From: a virus
Direction: 5' to 3' (one strand)
IMG/VR virus record: IMGVR_UViG_3300006750_000099
Coordinates: 1 to 21,970 of that record
DNA: 21,970 bases
Positions 1 to 21,970 of this stretch are shown here, piece after piece. A program made the position numbers and the translations under genes. Position 1 is the first letter of the stretch, and each line of letters begins with the position of its first letter. Under the pieces are notes generated by a model that was given only the letters and a program-made list of their open reading frames with translations, was not told the origin of the DNA and searched no databases.

Positions 1-1371
1 ATCATCAGTTTTCTTCTTCATTACATTCTTTTCAATGAGAATGTTCAATGTGCTGTTCTAGCAAACAAACTCTCAACCGCACGGGAGCTTCTTGGTAGAT
101 TACAGTTAGCATATGAGAATCTTCCAAAGTGGATGCAACAGGGGGTGGTTGTATGGAATAAGGGAAACATCGAACTAGAGAATGGTTCCAAGATTCTTGC
201 TGCAGCCACGTCTTCTTCGGCGGTCAGAGGAAGTTCCTTTAATATTATTTTTCTTGATGAATTTGCTCACGTTCCAAATAATATAGCAGACCAGTTTTTC
301 ACTTCAGTTTATCCTACTATTTCTTCTGGTGAATCTACAAAGGTTTTCATAGTATCAACTCCACTTGGGTTGAATATGTTTTATAAAATGTGGATAGACG
401 CAGAAGAGGGAAGAAATAGTTATGTTCCAATTGAAGTACATTGGGCTGAAACTCCTGGAAGAAATGAAAAATGGAGAAATGAAACTCTAAAGAATATTGG
501 AGAAACTCAGTTTACCCAAGAATTTGAAGGTGAATTTATAGGTTCTACCCATACACTTATTGCTCCATCTAAACTTAGAACTATGGCTTTTAAATCTCCT
601 ATTGCTTCTCAAGGTGGAATGGATATGTATGAAAATCCAGTAAAGGGGGCAACTTATTGTATTGTAGCAGATAGTGCTCAAGGTAAGGGACAAGACTATT
701 CTGCTTTAAGTGTTTTTGACATTTCTGATATTCCTTATAGACAAGTCGCCAAATATAGAGATAACCAAATTTCTCCAATGGTTTATCCAAACATTATCTA
801 CAATATTGGAATGAAATACAATACAGCATGGCTTATTGTGGAAATCAATGATATTGGACAACAAATAGCAGAATGTCTTCATTTTGATTTGGAGTATGAA
901 AATATTCTTATGGCATCTATGCATGGTAGAGCGGGACAGAAGATTGGTGGTGGATTTGGGAAAAATAATCAACTAGGAATTAGAACAAGTAAACAACTCA
1001 AGAGAATTGGTTGTGCTGCTTTAAAAGACATGATTGAAACAGACAAGTTGATTATTCCAGATTTTGATACTATTGCTGAATTGACTACATTTGCTTCAAA
1101 ACATAATTCATTTGAAGCAGAAGAAGGTTCTCATGATGACTTAGCAATGACATTGGTAATGTTTGCTTGGGTAGTACAACAACAATATTTTAAAGATATG
1201 ACAGATTTAGATATACGTAAACAAATCTATGAAGATCAAATGGAGACAATGGAGCAAGATATGCTTCCATTTGGAGTCATAGATGATGGGCAAAATCAAA
1301 ATACATTTGAAGATAAAACTGGTCAAACATGGAAAGTGGTTGAAGATGAGGCTGTGAGAAATTATTTCTAA
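1..1371 (+). CDS. gp17: Terminase large subunit (T4 gp17-like), 5' truncated by window edge
   Basis: DNA-packaging motor ATPase and headful nuclease that pumps DNA through the portal. The frame is open from base 1, so the ATG at 133 is internal: 44 upstream codons in the same frame read like gp17. The Walker A loop lies off the left edge. The Walker B segment IIFLDEF is at about 244-264. The RNase H-like nuclease domain keeps its acidic residues: the Asp of VADSAQGKGQDY (about 670), the Glu of LIVEIND (about 841) and the Asp pair of EEGSHDDLAM (about 1135). The STPLG coupling motif follows Walker B. The C-terminus is complete, ending in TAA. About 456 residues are visible, compared with 610 in T4. 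The next structural gene on this strand is the tail sheath, as in T4-like phages. Identification is from recognised motifs and overall similarity to T4 gp17. Confidence 0.95.
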   Translation: MISFLLHYILFNENVQCAVLANKLSTARELLGRLQLAYENLPKWMQQGVVVWNKGNIELENGSKILAAATSSSAVRGSSFNIIFLDEFAHVPNNIADQFFTSVYPTISSGESTKVFIVSTPLGLNMFYKMWIDAEEGRNSYVPIEVHWAETPGRNEKWRNETLKNIGETQFTQEFEGEFIGSTHTLIAPSKLRTMAFKSPIASQGGMDMYENPVKGATYCIVADSAQGKGQDYSALSVFDISDIPYRQVAKYRDNQISPMVYPNIIYNIGMKYNTAWLIVEINDIGQQIAECLHFDLEYENILMASMHGRAGQKIGGGFGKNNQLGIRTSKQLKRIGCAALKDMIETDKLIIPDFDTIAELTTFASKHNSFEAEEGSHDDLAMTLVMFAWVVQQQYFKDMTDLDIRKQIYEDQMETMEQDMLPFGVIDDGQNQNTFEDKTGQTWKVVEDEAVRNYF

Positions 1372-1736
1372 GCATCATTACTGAATCCAAAGTCATCCAT
1401 ATGGTCTTCTGTAGATCCTAATTTTATATTTTGAATAAGCTTCTTGGCATCAGGGTGTATTCTTGTTGAATTATATTTCAAACGAGATTCACTCTTTGTA
1501 CAAGTAATTAAGTGTTCAGGGTTTACGCACCCATTATTTTGACAAGTTTGATGTACAATATGTTTATTTGGTATTTCACCCTTGTAGTGAATATAAGCAA
1601 ACCTGTGAGCGGGGATAGATTTTCCTAGATAAGAAAACATTCCATATCCCTGTTGTGTTTTAGAGGCAATCCATGTCCAACAACCAGTATTTGAACTATT
1701 ATTAAACTTAGTCCGAAATCTTTCAATTTCTTTCAT
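1368..1736 (-). CDS. Free-standing HNH endonuclease (homing-type)
   Basis: A 122-residue protein with an HNH nuclease pattern: a CWTW N-terminal element, PAHRFAY, then IVHQTC...NGCVNPEHL, which supplies the first His, the central Asn and the final His. This resembles the short HNH enzymes that spread as selfish genes in phages. The start is placed at 1736 because GGAG stands six bases before this ATG; an in-frame ATG at 1757 would add seven residues but has no ribosome site. It is the only convincing - strand protein gene in the window, and its stop overlaps the terminase stop by four bases. A TATAAATG element (1755-1762) just upstream could be a weak late promoter. DNA cleavage is inferred from the motif; the target is unknown, although such genes usually cut near their own insertion point. 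Confidence 0.85.
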   Translation of the reverse strand: MKEIERFRTKFNNSSNTGCWTWIASKTQQGYGMFSYLGKSIPAHRFAYIHYKGEIPNKHIVHQTCQNNGCVNPEHLITCTKSESRLKYNSTRIHPDAKKLIQNIKLGSTEDHMDDFGFSNDA

Positions 1737-1754
1737 GTTAATCTCCATCAAAAT

Positions 1755-1762
1755 CATTTATA
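1755..1762 (-). promoter_or_regulatory. Possible weak late promoter for the HNH gene
   Basis: On the - strand this reads TATAAATG, one mismatch from the late consensus TATAAATA. The expected start about a dozen bases downstream leaves a very short leader that still includes the GGAG ribosome site. AT-rich context makes a chance match plausible. Confidence 0.3.
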
Positions 1763-6583: not shown

Positions 6584-6823
6584 ATGAGCGATTATACACC
6601 AGAAGATATTGTGAATTATTCTCTTACTCAAGATGGAGCAAGAGTTAAAGAAGCCATCACAGGAGTATTGGCAGATAAGATTATGAAAGGGATGGAAGCT
6701 AAGAAAGCAGAAGTCGCTCAATCTATGTTCAATTCTGCAGTTAATTCAGAGCCTCCTGTAGAAGAACCAAGTGGAGAGACAGCACCTGTGGAACCAGAGG
6801 TAAATACAGTTGAAGCGGAATGA
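6584..6823 (+). CDS. gp67: Prohead core protein, T4 gp67-like
   Basis: A 79-residue protein with a helical N-terminal half (MSDYTPEDIVNYSLTQDG, KIMKGMEAKKAEVAQSMF) and an acidic, Pro/Glu-rich tail (residues about 52-79). Size, acidity and position immediately after the portal gene match T4 gp67 (80 residues), a small core protein needed for correct head shape and degraded by gp21. Sequence similarity to T4 itself is weak by eye, so the assignment rests on context and architecture. The start follows a late promoter and a GGGAAA ribosome site. The end overlaps the next gene by four bases (ATGA), implying translational coupling. Confidence 0.75.
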   Translation: MSDYTPEDIVNYSLTQDGARVKEAITGVLADKIMKGMEAKKAEVAQSMFNSAVNSEPPVEEPSGETAPVEPEVNTVEAE

Positions 6824-7698
6824 AGAAATTCAAAGAGTTCAAATCGGAGCAACAATATATAGCAGAAATTGGGCCGATAGCTGCGACTCTTATGGGTGCG
6901 ATGGCTCTTTGGGGAGGTTATCAGGCTTTTAAAAAAGTTAAAGAAAAAGTTAAAGGATATAGAGAAACAAAACAAGAAAAAAAAGATAATAAGAAAGCCG
7001 GAGTTTCCATAGAATTAAAAAAATTTAATTCAGAAACCGGAAAAATGGATGTGGAAACTGAAATGATTGCCAAACCTGGTACAAGTGATGCGGCGATGTC
7101 AGCTGATGATATTGCTAAAGAACAGAAGAAAAGACAAAAAAAGTTAGACGCTGAAAATACTAGATTAAAGAATGCATATCAGGAAAAGGAAAAAGGAGCT
7201 AAAGAAAAAAGAGGTGGAATAGAGGATGTTGAAGATGCAGAAGAATATTTTAAAAACAAAGGTAAAGCTCCTACCGGATGGGCAGACACTAGAACTGATA
7301 AAGAAAAAGAAGATGGGGTGGATTTCAAAGGTAAAATTATGACAAGAGCAGATGCTGCAAAAGAGAAAAAGCGTCAAAGGAAAGTAGGAACAATAGGAAG
7401 AGGGGGAAAAGATACTTCTAAACCAGCTCCGGCAGAAACAGAAAGTACGATGTTAAAATTTGGGGAATTTATCACAGAAGATGTAATAAAAGACTTGAAA
7501 AAAATAATCAAGTCTAAAAAAGATAGTGAAATAGAACTAGATGATGGGTCAGAAATACCTATTGATCCAGTGACAGCGGAGATTTTTGTTAAATATATAG
7601 AAGGACTAGGTTCTTCAGAGAAAAACAAAACAATTAAACAGATCCAACGGACAGAAAGAGGCTTCATGAAAGTCCTTGGTAAAGCACATGAGGAATAA
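6820..7698 (+). CDS. Head core/internal protein with two capsid-targeting-like motifs (gp68 position)
   Basis: A 292-residue, lysine-rich protein with no family I can name. The N-terminus MKKFKEFKSEQQYIAE resembles the T4 capsid-targeting signal and ends in IAE, matching the gp21 cleavage rule (Ile/Leu-x-Glu). A small hydrophobic stretch follows (about 17-37, rich in Ala/Met/Gly), then a charged, probably helical and disordered region (40-200). At residues 211-220 a second signal-like block, MLKFGEFITE, precedes a compact C-terminal domain (221-292, with ELDDGSEIPIDP and TAEIFVKYIEGL). This could be two internal proteins fused, separated again by gp21. In T4 the gene here is 68, a 141-residue core protein. 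Start at 6820 overlaps the previous stop. Function beyond head core or internal protein is inference. Confidence 0.65.
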   Translation: MKKFKEFKSEQQYIAEIGPIAATLMGAMALWGGYQAFKKVKEKVKGYRETKQEKKDNKKAGVSIELKKFNSETGKMDVETEMIAKPGTSDAAMSADDIAKEQKKRQKKLDAENTRLKNAYQEKEKGAKEKRGGIEDVEDAEEYFKNKGKAPTGWADTRTDKEKEDGVDFKGKIMTRADAAKEKKRQRKVGTIGRGGKDTSKPAPAETESTMLKFGEFITEDVIKDLKKIIKSKKDSEIELDDGSEIPIDPVTAEIFVKYIEGLGSSEKNKTIKQIQRTERGFMKVLGKAHEE

Positions 7699-7701
7699 CC
7701 A

Positions 7702-8466
7702 ATGGCAATTACAAAATTAGTAAACACTCTAACGGATACACATAGCAAACACAGAGTGGTAACTACTGGTCTTGCTGATGGTGCTACAGAATTATCAAGT
7801 AATGTATTTGTTGATGTTTCAGCATTAAAATATGCGACAACTACCCTAACTCTAGCTGCTGCACCCAGTACAAATTTTTGTATAGGAGAAACTTTAACAA
7901 CAAATGATGGTACACCAATTTTCATGGTTGTACAAGATTATGACGCTGCGGCGACTACTGTTTCAGTTTATAGATGTACAAGTGCTACAGATCCAACTCC
8001 TTTGGGATGGGCAAGTGGCGTTGCGACTGGAGTTGGAACTGGAAAAACATTGACAGGAAGTGTATCTGGTCTATCATCCACAACTACACATGGTTCTACA
8101 GCATTAGCAATTACAGCTAAAGAAGTTAATCTTAGACATATATGGTGGGATTTAGCATCTGGTATTACTCATTGTAGAATATTTTTTGACGGAAGTGGAA
8201 CAGAACAAACTCTTATGTATTTACGGGGTGGTTCAACTGGAGCATGGAATCTAGCAGAAGTATTTGGAAGCTCTTTAACAATGGGTGCCGCGGCAGGTAA
8301 TTCCAGTGGAGTATTGGGAGATCTTGGAGTAACTACTGTTGGAGTTGCTAGTGGTGATACTTATTTAATAGGATTAGAAATACAAAAAGTTTCTGGATTT
8401 AATTTACCAAACTTTGAGCAAAATGCGCGTCTTGGTTATGATGCATATAGAACAGGGAATCATTAA
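7702..8466 (+). CDS. Unknown probable virion protein in the head operon
   Basis: A 254-residue protein of unknown family. Composition is rich in Thr, Ser, Gly and Ala with alternating hydrophobic residues, suggesting beta-sheet. A repeating style of segments (TTLTLAAAPSTNFCIGETL, TGKTLTGSVSGLSS, NLRHIWWDLASGITHCRIFF) looks like a phage surface or decoration protein rather than an enzyme. There is no signal peptide and no LxE-type N-terminal targeting signal. The ATG follows GAGGA at 7690-7694. It lies between core-protein genes in the portal-protease interval, where T4 has no equivalent, so a capsid-associated role is likely but unproven. The next gene begins on the A of its stop codon (TAATG), implying coupled translation. 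Confidence 0.6.
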   Translation: MAITKLVNTLTDTHSKHRVVTTGLADGATELSSNVFVDVSALKYATTTLTLAAAPSTNFCIGETLTTNDGTPIFMVVQDYDAAATTVSVYRCTSATDPTPLGWASGVATGVGTGKTLTGSVSGLSSTTTHGSTALAITAKEVNLRHIWWDLASGITHCRIFFDGSGTEQTLMYLRGGSTGAWNLAEVFGSSLTMGAAAGNSSGVLGDLGVTTVGVASGDTYLIGLEIQKVSGFNLPNFEQNARLGYDAYRTGNH

Positions 8467-8762
8467 TGAAAACTTTTAAAGAATTAATAGACAGTCTTGT
8501 AGAAATTACAATAGGTCAACGGGAGAAAAAAACTTCCGGTGATAGAATGAAAGCCAAGCAAGAATATAGAAAAAATAAACAGAAGAAAAAAGCATATATG
8601 AAAAAGTACAGGAGAAGTTCTGGTGCTAAAATGCTTCAAAAGAAGGGTGACCGCATGGCGAAACAAGGCAAAACCGCGACAGGTAGAGATATTTCAGTAG
8701 CAGGTGGTGCTGGTGCAGCTCAACGCGCGAAGGAAAGAAAACAAGAGCTTCAGAAGCGGTAG
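8466..8762 (+). CDS. Basic putative internal head protein with capsid-targeting signal
   Basis: A 98-residue, extremely basic protein (long runs of Lys/Arg such as RKNKQKKKAYMKKYRR). The N-terminus MKTFKELIDSLVE has the MKT-aromatic-x-E pattern of T4 internal protein signals and ends in LVE, a gp21-type cleavage site. After cleavage an almost purely Lys/Arg/Gln/Gly-rich DNA-compatible polypeptide of about 85 residues would remain. Start is coupled to the preceding stop (TAATG). Followed two bases later by another protein of the same design. Role proposed by analogy with T4 internal proteins, which are packed with DNA and injected. A DNA-condensing function is inference. Confidence 0.65.
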   Translation: MKTFKELIDSLVEITIGQREKKTSGDRMKAKQEYRKNKQKKKAYMKKYRRSSGAKMLQKKGDRMAKQGKTATGRDISVAGGAGAAQRAKERKQELQKR

Positions 8763-8764
8763 AG

Positions 8765-9133
8765 ATGAAAACCTACTCTGAATTTATAGCTGAACTAACT
8801 ACACAGCAAAGAATGAAAAAATCTTTGACTATGAGAAAGAAGTCAAAGATTATAGCGAGAAAGCGGGCGATTTCTATGAGGAAACCCCCTACTCCAGAAA
8901 AGGTTCAGAGAGCGATTAAGAAAGCGGTACGAAGTAAAGCTATGCATATAGTGGATAAGATGGGAATATATAAGACAGCATCTGCTGGTGTTAAAGCGGG
9001 GTTAGAAAAGAAAGCCGATATGAAAGTACAGAGAATGGGTAGTAAATGGGAAAAAAGGCTTAAACCAGAAATTAGAAAAAGAATGAAGGATGCGTTTAAA
9101 CAACGTATGCATGTTAAAAATCCAGAAGGATAA
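8765..9133 (+). CDS. Internal head protein with near-canonical T4 capsid-targeting sequence
   Basis: A 122-residue, strongly basic protein. Its first ten residues MKTYSEFIAE differ from the T4 internal-protein signal MKTYQEFIAE at a single position. In T4 this peptide directs proteins into the prohead core and is removed by gp21 after the Glu. The mature part is helical and Lys/Arg-rich (MRKKSKIIARKRAISMRK, RAIKKAVRSKAMHIVDKMG), with a C-terminal KRMKDAFKQRMHV segment. No enzymatic motif seen. It lies directly before the gene 21 protease, two bases after the 98-residue protein gene. Expected fate: encapsidated, trimmed, possibly ejected with the DNA into the host. What it does there is unknown; T4 IPI blocks a restriction enzyme, but no similarity in the mature part is apparent. 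Confidence 0.75.
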   Translation: MKTYSEFIAELTTQQRMKKSLTMRKKSKIIARKRAISMRKPPTPEKVQRAIKKAVRSKAMHIVDKMGIYKTASAGVKAGLEKKADMKVQRMGSKWEKRLKPEIRKRMKDAFKQRMHVKNPEG

Positions 9134-9147
9134 TAGGGAGAGATACT

Positions 9148-9798
9148 ATGAAACTTATTAGCGAAGAAGCATCTAATGTAGAATTTCTTACTGAAACTAC
9201 AAAGAAGGGTGGTAAGAATTATTTTATTGAAGGTATTTTTATGCAAGCCAATACGAAGAATAGAAATGGTAGAATCTATCCCCAAGAAATTCTTCAAAAA
9301 GAAGCAAAAAGATATAATACGGAATTTATTCAGAAGAAAAGAGCATTTGGTGAGCTGGGTCATCCAGACGGTCCAACAGTTAATTTGGAACGGGTTTCAC
9401 ATATGATTGAAGAATTACAAGAAGTTGAACAGAATTTTATGGGAAGAGCAAAGATTCTGGATACACCGTATGGAAAAATTGTAAAGAATCTGATTGATGA
9501 AGGAGCTCGATTAGGAGTTTCATCGAGAGGAATGGGTTCATTAAAACCTGTAAAGGATGGTATTCAAGAGGTGCAGGGAGATTTTTATCTTGCTACTGCA
9601 GCTGATATTGTTGCTGATCCTTCGGCACCCGATGCATTTGTTGCTGGAATTATGGAAGGCAAGGAGTGGATTTGGGATAACGGTCTTTTAAAAGAGACTA
9701 AAATACAAGAATATAAAAATCAAATAGAGAAAGCTTCAAGAAAGAGTAGGGAACAGACCCTTACTAAAGCATTTGAAGACTTTATTGTCAATTTGTAA
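9148..9798 (+). CDS. gp21: Prohead core protease (T4 gp21-like)
   Basis: Serine protease of the prohead that cleaves scaffold, core and capsid proteins after Leu/Ile-x-Glu and then itself. 216 residues, against 212 in T4. The herpesvirus-protease-type catalytic pieces are visible: FGELGHPDG with His72 and GVSSRGMG with the nucleophile among Ser125/Ser126. The start of the fold, FIEGIFMQANTKNRNGRIYP, is typical of this family. An LTE site at residues 14-16 could be its own maturation site. Start supported by GGGAGAG at 9136-9142. It follows the proposed substrates and precedes scaffold and capsid genes, the T4 order 20-67-68-21-22-23. Confidence 0.95.
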   Translation: MKLISEEASNVEFLTETTKKGGKNYFIEGIFMQANTKNRNGRIYPQEILQKEAKRYNTEFIQKKRAFGELGHPDGPTVNLERVSHMIEELQEVEQNFMGRAKILDTPYGKIVKNLIDEGARLGVSSRGMGSLKPVKDGIQEVQGDFYLATAADIVADPSAPDAFVAGIMEGKEWIWDNGLLKETKIQEYKNQIEKASRKSREQTLTKAFEDFIVNL

Positions 9799-9856: not shown

Positions 9857-10051
9857 ATGTCTGAAGAAATTTTGGAACAACAGTCTGAAGAACTGGAAGA
9901 AGAGCAACAAGCTGTGGAATCTTCAGACGAAGAAATCAACGAAGCCAAAGCTCGAGTAAAAGAAGATGATGATGAAGGTGAAGAAGAAGATGATGAAGAA
10001 GAGGTAGAAGAAGCTGTCGAAATTCCTAAAACAAAAGCAGGAATGATGTAA
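9857..10051 (+). CDS. gp22: Scaffold protein gp22, N-terminal segment ending at an in-frame TAA
   Basis: 64 residues, very acidic (a run of Glu/Asp at residues 34-51), then EIPKTKAGMM and a TAA at 10049-10051. The next codons in the same frame (AIYDSLNTMKKSEL) carry straight on into the scaffold protein, and the combined segment KAGM..A.YDSLN.MKKSEL is how I remember the corresponding region of marine T4-like scaffold proteins. The two parts therefore look like one ancestral reading frame of about 366 residues. Start supported by CAGGAGA and the late promoter at 9810. Alternatives are a true nonsense mutation, stop read-through, or a base error. As drawn, this piece alone is unlikely to be a functional scaffold. 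Confidence 0.75.
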   Translation: MSEEILEQQSEELEEEQQAVESSDEEINEAKARVKEDDDEGEEEDDEEEVEEAVEIPKTKAGMM

Positions 10052-10075
10052 GCTATCTATGATTCTCTTAATACA

Positions 10076-10957
10076 ATGAAGAAATCTGAACTTCAGGATT
10101 CTTTTGCTCAAATTATAGGAGCTACTCTTTCTGAACAAGATGATGATGAGGAAGAGGAAGAAGGCGATGAAGAAGAAAAACCAGTAGAATCGAAGAAACT
10201 CAGTAAGGAAGACCTAGAAATTAATGTCAAAGAAGACATTGATGCCATTGTTAGTGGGGAAGAACTTTCAGAAGATTTTAAGACTAAAGCGGCTACTATA
10301 TTTGAAGCGGCTGTATCAACTAAAGTTATTTCCGAGGTAAATGAGAGACTGCAAGTTTTTGAAGATGAATACAAAAAAGAACTTTCTGAAGCTAAAGACG
10401 AATATATGACCAATATGTCTGAAAAAGTCGATGGTTATCTTAATTACGTTGTAGAAGAGTGGATGAAAGACAATGAAATAGCTTTAGAAAAAGGAATTCG
10501 TTCGGAACTCGTAGAAGATTTTATGACCGGACTTAAAAACCTTTTTCAAGAGCATTATATTGACATTCCAGAAGAGAAAGTTGACTTAGTTGATGATCTT
10601 TTTGGAAAAGTCGAAGAACTTGAAAAGCAACTTGATGAATCCATTAATACTAATGTGGATGTCAAAAAGGAACTTGCTAAGTTCAAAAGGGAAGAGGTTT
10701 TAAGAAATGTTTCGGAAGAACTTGCTGAAACAGAAAAAGAAAAACTCACAAAACTTGCAGATGGTATCGATTATGAAGACGATTCTCAATACCAAGAGAA
10801 GCTTGAAGTATTAAAGGAAAATTATTTTCCGAAGACAAGTGATACTCCTCAAACAATTACTGAAGAAGTAGAAAATACTGAAACAGATGAAGAGACAGGG
10901 GAGACTATTGATCCATCTATTAGTCGTTATGTCAATGCAATGAAAAGACATAATTAA
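10076..10957 (+). CDS. gp22: Prohead scaffold core protein (T4 gp22-like), C-terminal part
   Basis: 293 residues from the first Met after the internal stop; the same frame is open from 10052. Acidic and largely coiled-coil (for example LVDDLFGKVEELEKQLDES and KREEVLRNVSEELAETEKEK), as expected for the scaffold that fills the prohead and is degraded by gp21. The block DIDAIVSGEELSEDF, KAATIFEAAV is characteristic of marine gp22. No ribosome-binding sequence precedes the ATG at 10076 (upstream bases are pyrimidine/AT-rich), which argues that this part is normally made by continuing from 9857. Many Leu/Ile-x-Glu sites would allow complete digestion. Gene 23 follows after 51 bases, as in T4. Confidence 0.85.
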   Translation: MKKSELQDSFAQIIGATLSEQDDDEEEEEGDEEEKPVESKKLSKEDLEINVKEDIDAIVSGEELSEDFKTKAATIFEAAVSTKVISEVNERLQVFEDEYKKELSEAKDEYMTNMSEKVDGYLNYVVEEWMKDNEIALEKGIRSELVEDFMTGLKNLFQEHYIDIPEEKVDLVDDLFGKVEELEKQLDESINTNVDVKKELAKFKREEVLRNVSEELAETEKEKLTKLADGIDYEDDSQYQEKLEVLKENYFPKTSDTPQTITEEVENTETDEETGETIDPSISRYVNAMKRHN

Positions 10958-11008: not shown

Positions 11009-12322
11009 ATGTATCTAGCTGAAGGACTTCAACAAAAATGGGGCCCGGTCTTGGATCATGATGATATGCCCGAGATTAAAGACCCGTACAGAAGGGCTGT
11101 GACAGCTGTCCTTTTGGAAAACCAAGAAAAGGCAATGAAGGAGCAAGGCTCGTCAGATTCCTGGGGAATGTTGACAGAGGCAACTCCAACTGTCGCTACT
11201 GCTACAGCATCTGCATCTGGTGTTATCCAGTATCAAGATCCTGTCTTGATTTCGATGCTTCGCAGAGCAATGCCTAATCTTATTGCGTATGATATCTGTG
11301 GTGTCCAGCCTATGACAGGACCTACAGGACTTATTTTCGCAATGAGAGCACGTTATGATTCACAATCAACCGGTACTGAAAGTTTCTACAATGAATCTGA
11401 TGTTACACATGCTGGTGCAGCAACTACTGGAACACAAGCAAGTGCGGGCTCAGCCGGTACTGACTTTGCTCAAGGTGGTTCTGCAGACAATGTAGCTGGC
11501 GGCGTTGCAACTGCTGCTGGTGAAGGCTTGGGTATTACTGGAACTTCTGGAACTCATGGAGATGATTTCCAGGAAATGGCATTCTCAATTGAGAGAGTTG
11601 CCGTTACAGCAAAGACAAGAGCATTGAAGGGTGAATATTCAATGGAATTGTCTCAAGACCTGAAAGCTGTTCATGGTCTAGATGCTGAAACAGAACTCGC
11701 AAATATTCTCTCACAAGAAATTCTTGCAGAGATTAACCGTGAGGTTGTTCACAACATCTATTTTGCTGCTACAACTGGTGCTGCTCATAATACCACAAGT
11801 TCTGGTATTTTTGACCTTGACACAGACTCTAATGGCCGTTGGTCAGTTGAGAAATTCAAAGGTTTGATGTTCCAGATTGAGCGTGAAGCTAATGCAGTCG
11901 CAAAAGCAACACGACGTGGTAAAGGTAACGTCATACTCACTTCCTCAGATGTCGCATCCGCACTTGCTATGGCAGGCGTGATGGACGGATCAGGAGTTGA
12001 TGACACAGGTAATTCCTTTGTTGGTACACTGAATGGTCGCTACAAAGTTTATGTAGATCCATATTTCAGTTCATCCGCAACAAATTTCTTTGTTGTTGGA
12101 TATAAAGGAGCCAGTGCTTATGACGCAGGTATTTTCTACTGCCCATATGTACCACTACAAATGGTGCGTGCGGTTGGTGAAAATTCATTCCAGCCTAAGA
12201 TTGGTTTTAAAACCCGCTACGGTATGGTAGGAAATCCATTTGCAACTGCTTCTAGTGCAGGAACAATTGCAGCTGGAACCAACTACTACTACAGAATTGT
12301 TAAGGTTTCTAACCTGATGTAA
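11009..12322 (+). CDS. gp23: Major capsid protein (T4 gp23-like)
   Basis: Main hexamer-forming head protein, HK97 fold, 437 residues (T4 521). The N-terminal delta domain is expected to be removed by gp21 after MLTE at residues 54-57, leaving mature protein starting ATPTVATATAS. Recognised T4-like capsid segments include QDPVLISMLRRAMPNLIAYD, CGVQPMTGPTGLIFAMRARY, VTAKTRALKGEYSMELSQDL and YKVYVDPYFSS...YKGASAYDAG near the C-terminus. Codons here are visibly more GC-rich than in neighbouring genes, consistent with high expression. AGGAGA ribosome site at 10998-11003. A strong terminator follows. No gene 24 (vertex) homologue is adjacent. Confidence 0.97.
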   Translation: MYLAEGLQQKWGPVLDHDDMPEIKDPYRRAVTAVLLENQEKAMKEQGSSDSWGMLTEATPTVATATASASGVIQYQDPVLISMLRRAMPNLIAYDICGVQPMTGPTGLIFAMRARYDSQSTGTESFYNESDVTHAGAATTGTQASAGSAGTDFAQGGSADNVAGGVATAAGEGLGITGTSGTHGDDFQEMAFSIERVAVTAKTRALKGEYSMELSQDLKAVHGLDAETELANILSQEILAEINREVVHNIYFAATTGAAHNTTSSGIFDLDTDSNGRWSVEKFKGLMFQIEREANAVAKATRRGKGNVILTSSDVASALAMAGVMDGSGVDDTGNSFVGTLNGRYKVYVDPYFSSSATNFFVVGYKGASAYDAGIFYCPYVPLQMVRAVGENSFQPKIGFKTRYGMVGNPFATASSAGTIAAGTNYYYRIVKVSNLM

Positions 12323-21688: not shown

Positions 21689-21734
21689 ATTTATATAGAT
21701 GGAACACACCCATTTAAAATAGAAAGTGAATAAA

Positions 21735-21970
21735 ATGGTATATAGTAAAGAAGGAAGGTGGGATCAAACTGAAAGACCCTATACTCCAGCAGATGTGAAA
21801 AGATTAAGTGGTTCTGTCAGGGTTGAACACACTCTTGCAAAACAGGGTGCAGAAAAACTCTGGAACAAATTACATTATACAAATTATGTTAGTGCATTGG
21901 GTGCATTAACTGGTAATCAAGCAATGCAACAAGCAAAGGCAGGACTTGATGCAATCTACCTCTCAGGGTG
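21735..21970 (+). CDS. aceA: Isocitrate lyase, N-terminal part (cut by window edge)
   Basis: 78 codons are visible and read as the N-terminus of bacterial isocitrate lyase, which splits isocitrate into succinate and glyoxylate, the first step of the glyoxylate shunt. Diagnostic blocks in order: GRW and [14 protein letters not shown] (residues 7-26), [13 protein letters not shown] (31-43), [16 protein letters not shown] (51-66), [10 protein letters not shown] (69-78); the cut codon is compatible with the usual Trp that follows. The catalytic KKCGH loop would be downstream and cannot be checked. Start: ATG 21735, weakly preceded by GAAAGTG; a GTG at 21726 is an alternative. An in-frame TAG at 21720 bounds the frame. 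In phage context this is an auxiliary metabolic gene. Confidence 0.9.

Follow-up and report, generated by a model that had tools for sequence, protein, structure and literature searches.

The gene o8765 (8765..9133, plus strand) most probably encodes an internal head protein that is directed into the capsid by a capsid-targeting signal (CTS), is trimmed by the prohead protease gp21 and occupies the gene 68 slot, where its product probably binds DNA and/or the head core. As we envisage it, the first ten residues would bring the protein into the prohead core, and gp21, the product of the adjacent gene, would cut once after Glu10, as suggested by the motif at this place and its conservation. The resulting 112-residue, very basic, three-helix product would then stay in the head, where its most likely task, in what is the gene 68 slot of T4, is to bind the DNA packaged there and/or the acidic core while the head is being assembled. 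Since CTS-type N-termini are found in large numbers in uncultured T4-like viruses, o8765 is, judged by its sequence, a new family within the already known class of CTS-tagged internal head proteins.

Genomic setting and conservation of o8765

The stretch of DNA analyzed here (the window) is an entire IMG/VR virus record of 21,970 bases with the gene order gp17-gp18-gp19-gp20, five further genes, gp21-gp22-gp23 and then replication genes, which can be compared with the order 17-18-19-20-67-68-21-22-23 of T4. Window genes without a domain or profile match were named from this order and from tblastn names. The nearest isolates by gp21 are the Pelagibacter phages Mosig (66%) and HTVC008M (64%), and the source phage is apparently an uncultured marine relative of T4. 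Gene o8765 has an ATG start and 122 codons, and its translation, MKTYSEFIAELTTQQRMKKSLTMRKKSKIIARKRAISMRKPPTPEKVQRAIKKAVRSKAMHIVDKMGIYKTASAGVKAGLEKKADMKVQRMGSKWEKRLKPEIRKRMKDAFKQRMHVKNPEG, begins with MKTYSEFIAELTTQQR and gives a predicted head protein precursor of pI 11.05 with 37 K/R versus 10 D/E. Just downstream of its end at 9133 follows the gene of the prohead protease gp21 (9148..9798, plus strand; Pfam Peptidase_S77, 1e-35; PHROG head maturation protease, 1.5e-81), which carries an N-terminal LTE motif of its own. What the original prediction had read from the DNA of this region, i.e., an open reading frame of exactly this extent, a highly basic mature part (112 aa, 32% K+R) and a gp21 gene directly downstream in a T4-like phage, was borne out in full.

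Close relatives of o8765 with 43-100% identity were found at 12 IMG/VR loci and lie directly before gp21 in the loci read in detail. We examined 76 gp21 loci, 18 of which combine a gp21 of at least 74% identity with sufficient upstream DNA (one further locus, L273, was set aside because its upstream DNA is too short). A gene of the o8765 family directly precedes gp21 in 17 of these 18 environmental loci, the sole exception being L310, whose gp21 identity of 75% covers a partial match. None of the 57 loci with a gp21 below 72% identity has a family gene directly before gp21, and the one weak match at such a locus (L312, E 3e-4) concerns a different ORF ca. 1 kb upstream. Two loci, L270 and L271, carry two copies of the family gene. 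When o8765 is compared with the two diverged relatives closest to it, dN/dS amounts to 0.13 and 0.18, indicating purifying selection, and these values together with the synteny at 17 of 18 loci establish that o8765 is a real gene.

The block between gp20 and gp21 also holds a small acidic protein of pI 4.2 (6584..6823, plus strand), which is assigned to the gene 67 position by its place alone and not by homology to T4 gp67, and the conserved 254-aa protein o7702 (7702..8466, plus strand). Further downstream, the gp22 scaffold gene (9857..10957, plus strand) is interrupted by an in-frame TAA at 10049-10051 and forms one uninterrupted ORF in seven relatives (L001-L007); the stop codon is a sequencing error or a sporadic mutation. 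We also note a 129-aa ORF between gp17 and gp18 (1368-1757, minus strand) that looks like an HNH endonuclease by eye and has no NCBIfam match. At the far end of the window (21726-21970), the start of an isocitrate lyase gene is cut by the end of the record (PF00463, 1e-7; NCBIfam PRK15063, 4.5e-31); isocitrate lyase has been reported from marine viromes (PMC4053976).

Targeting signal and its occurrence in other phages

Residues 1-10 of o8765, MKTYSEFIAE (8765..8794, plus strand), form the predicted CTS and are identical to the signal of T4 IPII and IPIII at nine of ten positions. The one-position difference pointed out in the original prediction was checked in the T4 record itself, where ipII and ipIII both start with ATGAAAACATATCAAGAATTTATTGCCGAA (MKTYQEFIAE). 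With a degenerate strict pattern (MKx[FY]xE-hydrophobic-hydrophobic-xE), T4 has three matches, namely ipII, ipIII and gene 61.1, and the window has a single one, with the pattern contained in none of 100 dinucleotide shuffles. The T4 gene 61.1 product (54 aa, annotated as hypothetical; AF158101 18966-19130) has the CTS-type start MKTFKEFIKE.

Genetic work on T4 attributed targeting to residues 4 and 7 of the signal and processing to residues 8 and 10 (PMC9026906). Across 17 aligned members of the o8765 family, residue 4 is always F or Y and residue 7 always F, L or M, K2 and an acidic residue 6 are each present in 16 of the 17, and a Glu is found at position 9 or 10 in every one. The signal as a whole drifts across the family (MKKYKEMISE, MKSFKELVSE, MKTFKELREA, MKDFKDFMEA), so that it is the functional pattern, and not the near-exact likeness to T4, that is inherited as a constant. 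The near-exact likeness is confined to the window's own clade.

Two neighbors of o8765 have CTS-like starts as well. One is o8466 (8466..8762, plus strand; MKTFKELIDSLVE), a 98-aa basic protein with LVE at residues 11-13 whose N-terminal region is related to that of o8765 (hhalign 1.6e-4 over 27 columns), and the other is o6820 (6820..7698, plus strand; MKKFKEFKSEQQYIAE), which brings the apparently CTS-tagged genes in the five-gene block before gp21 to three. Inside o6820, a second CTS-like stretch, MLKFGEFITE (7450-7479), is kept in similar form in all relatives, and the middle of the protein is variable. An internal translation start at this place was rejected, as the codon in question is ATG, ATT, GTA, GTT or CTT among the relatives; the stretch is possibly a gp21 site that frees the conserved C-terminal domain.

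The search of marine T4-like genomes proposed along with the original prediction was carried out on isolates. The genomes of five cyanophages and two Pelagibacter phages contain no match to the strict pattern anywhere, and the gp20-gp21 intervals of these seven isolates contain no member of the o8765 family. For these isolates, the idea that every marine T4-like phage has CTS genes next to gp21 is rejected. Looser CTS-like starts exist in HTVC008M (e.g., MKSFKDF and MKTFTDF), so the strict pattern underestimates CTS-like usage.

A scan of IMG/VR for MKTxxEF[IM]xE found at least 120 stretches, which are a sample and not a total. Among the matches listed, 107 of 113 starts lie at most 30 codons from an upstream stop, and the mature part has a pI of at least 9 in 92 of 115, compared with 31% of background ORFs; by these counts, what the pattern picks out in environmental phages are genuine protein starts with basic cargo behind them. 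An S77 protease is present in all eight tested carrier records of at least 135 kb and in 3 of 12 shorter carriers. In a scan for MKTFxEF, a pattern that leaves the cleavage site free, 28 of the 93 N-termini among the matches listed still had [ILMV]xE at residues 8-10, against 1.1% per position elsewhere. Signal and cleavage site co-occur, and such proteins are, on the evidence of this census, common in environmental T4-like phages.

In another environmental T4-like phage (locus L146, 5052-8885, minus strand), gp21 has four CTS-type ORFs around it, of which one lies upstream and three lie downstream. CTS-like starts (MMKFTQFLAE, MMLDFKNFITE and MKKFTSYLTE) were also seen in DUF6267 or DUF6267-like proteins that adjoin genes for the basic module described below (L358, 552-1787; L356, 1128-2351; L352, 2607-3836, minus strand). 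These neighbors are possibly packaged enzymes.

Predicted cleavage site and the basic helical module

The gp21 protease cuts after L/I-x-E (PMC9026906), a rule that Ile-Ala-Glu at residues 8-10 of o8765 (8786..8794, plus strand) matches as originally claimed, with the predicted cut after Glu10. This is the sole [ILMV]xE in the protein, and each of nine family members has exactly one, though the mature part contains few Glu and the absence of further motifs there is therefore weak evidence. The predicted P1' residue, Leu, is unusual (2 of 115 among the census matches listed), and six of the 17 family members have F-M-E instead of L/I-x-E, with V or M at P3 in some others. Regarding other head proteins of the lineage, gp21 itself keeps [LV]-x-E at residues 14-16, and gp23 keeps (L/M)-x-E at residues ca. 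52-59, mostly with Ala next; in the window, the major capsid protein gp23 (11009..12322, plus strand) has this conserved maturation motif as L-T-E at residues 55-57, followed by Ala. What we consider the strongest natural evidence for the cleavage site is the alignment of relative L280, in which o8466 and o8765 are fused into a single 255-aa protein with the o8765 part behind. The second half of this fusion has lost the MK-x-aromatic targeting residues, and its LNE|LNFIQR aligns with IAE|LTTQQR of the window, so that an L-x-E persists at the corresponding position.

The mature part (residues 11-122; 8795..9130, plus strand) would form a basic three-helix module, as suggested by homology and by an AlphaFold2 model of o8765 (pLDDT 89.7) with helices at residues 4-38, 44-63 and 74-117, in which the N-terminal helix runs on into the first module helix. 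It had been described as showing no known family, a statement that profile comparison overturns by linking it to a module of HTVC008M, phiM12, DLP_6, OC and C48C1. A profile of the 17 family members finds HTVC008M gp142 at 3.8e-7 in a search of the whole genome as well as the environmental records G027 and G026 and, searched against a small set, matches phiM12 gp159 (PHROG 23027), Ochrobactrum OC p410, C48C1_CDS0088 and DLP_6 AAY80_068. Comparison of the family with six module relatives by hhalign gives a probability of 96.8% and an E of 2.1e-10 over 104 columns, and a further comparison adds G041 and G046. These alignments identify the mature part as a diverged version of a basic helical module found in other phages of the T4 superfamily, with which it shares ca. 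104 columns of homology and the richness in K/R. The module is found stand-alone or within large proteins (602 to >1300 residues of open frame, away from gp21), some of which match DUF5824 or have sub-threshold cytidylyltransferase-like or HNH matches. Unlike several copies that are buried in such large proteins away from gp21, o8765 is a stand-alone form beside it.

Other searches with the mature part gave no matches, or only sub-threshold chance matches, in Pfam, NCBIfam and PADLOC, and sequence matches to solved structures were no better than chance. Foldseek against the PDB returned nothing significant and VIA-align a single row with Z 2.2, which does not imply a novel fold. Fold matches in BFVD are individually not significant (best E 0.05), and the top ten contain phiM12 S5MQF5 (602 aa) and entries matching the lengths of OC p410 (193) and DLP_6 068 (722); the module proteins of these three phages were also found separately by profile search. 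A match to PHROG 3966 (E 0.004) was rejected as homology of the mature part and is mainly driven by the CTS, since the matches of T4 IPIII and IPII to this profile are confined to their residues 1-21 and 1-15, respectively. An IMG/VR scan with the close-relative profile yielded little extra, and scans with single module proteins found few relatives.

At the module boundary, [ILMV]xE is present in 10 of 13 o8765 family members (IAE in the window). The same holds for 8 of 11 remote relatives (ILE, VEE, VVE, VSE, LGE, LTE, LQE and LDE) against a background of 0.048 per test window (binomial 4e-9), or for 5 of 11 with strict [IL]xE (8e-6), in a test that was devised post hoc on sequences already seen and with relatives that are not independent. 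The predicted cut would be LGE|ALTYSQR in gp159 of Sinorhizobium phage phiM12 and VVE|AMDMA in HTVC008M gp142. In the case of C48C1_CDS0088, the match to the o8765 profile extends over residues 1-113 and includes the signal (MLSFKQFVSE|VLDATQRR...). The larger module proteins appear to carry a cut site at the same boundary, though the boundary Glu could instead have a structural role within the module helix. An S77 prohead protease is encoded in all five isolate genomes with the module and in 8 of 11 records overall; no S77 match was found in G041, a 142-kb record that carries the module. We tentatively put forward the broader idea that T4-superfamily phages might have in common a portable basic module that enters the prohead, in some cases as part of a large multi-domain protein, and is excised there at a conserved [ILV]xE boundary by gp21, with o8765 as its minimal stand-alone form.

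Comparison with T4 head proteins and implications

Among other explanations, the one that survives best, though we consider it unlikely, is that o8765 has the same function as T4 gp68 and would, as a core protein, first shape the prohead and then be digested and lost. The gene indeed has the exact position of gene 68, immediately before gp21 and between gp20/gp67 and gp21, and its product shares a strongly basic region with gp68, where it is the C-terminal half. However, no sequence relation was found (hhalign E 0.43 and 0.041; no match of o8765 to PHROG 1049, which is T4 gp68), and T4 gp68 has no CTS. The seven [ILMVF]xE sites of T4 gp68 stand against one predicted cleavage site in o8765, so its mature protein should survive the protease, and multi-site degradation by gp21 as in gp68 is not predicted from the sequence. 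Cyanophages have been reported to lack gp67 and gp68 (PMC2984593), and in the cyanophage records that we examined the gp20-gp21 interval contains just one small gene.

With T4 IPII and IPIII, o8765 shares the N-terminal CTS, the gp21-type site at residue 10 and the format of a small basic protein. It differs from them in its mature part, which is unrelated at the sensitivity used (the 17-member profile has no match at E 0.01 in the whole T4 genome, the mature domains of IPI, IPII and IPIII included), and in the place of its gene, which is near-constant beside gp21 in its lineage whereas T4 ipII and ipIII sit between denV and e. The T4 internal proteins have been described as not highly conserved (PMC9026906); some of them are injected, and one inhibits a nuclease (PMC9958956; PMC9026906). 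An ejected effector had been among the candidates of the original prediction; o8765 would then be packaged, injected with the DNA and block host restriction or defense, like T4 IPI against GmrSD, and the shared class of N-terminal signal and the small, basic product are in line with this. We nevertheless find such an effector improbable and the suggestion unsupported, given that the gene is nearly constant in its lineage, keeps its synteny and evolves under purifying selection, that it lies in the head operon and not in a variable locus, and that it has no match in PADLOC, a library of defense and not anti-defense proteins. Furthermore, its module also occurs inside large cytidylyltransferase-like and DUF5824 proteins, suggesting a general packaging or DNA-binding role. 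A function in head assembly or DNA packing fits a near-constant head-operon gene under purifying selection better than an arms-race effector; DNA binding by the mature part is a plausible candidate on grounds of its charge, and ejection of the product together with the DNA is possible. Finally, a chance match or generic amphipathic helix on a DNA- or RNA-binding protein that stays in the cytoplasm and out of the head would agree with the continuity of the modelled N-terminal helix and the first module helix, but is very improbable in light of the specificity of the CTS motif, its conserved functional positions, the L-x-E kept in the L280 fusion and the boundary motifs in fused relatives.

With o8765 read as a CTS-targeted, gp21-trimmed internal head protein, T4-style head loading probably reaches beyond enteric T4-like phages into uncultured relatives of Pelagibacter phages, and the gene 67/68 slot reported missing from cyanophages (PMC2984593) is here occupied by CTS-type basic proteins. 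If the idea of a portable module is true, the cytidylyltransferase-like proteins, the DUF5824 proteins and the DUF6267 proteins with CTS-like starts would be head-packaged enzymes that are delivered into the cell. A CTS at the start of a protein and [ILV]xE at the module boundary together offer a sequence handle on packaged cargo, by which the cargo of uncultured T4-like phages becomes testable through cultured carriers.
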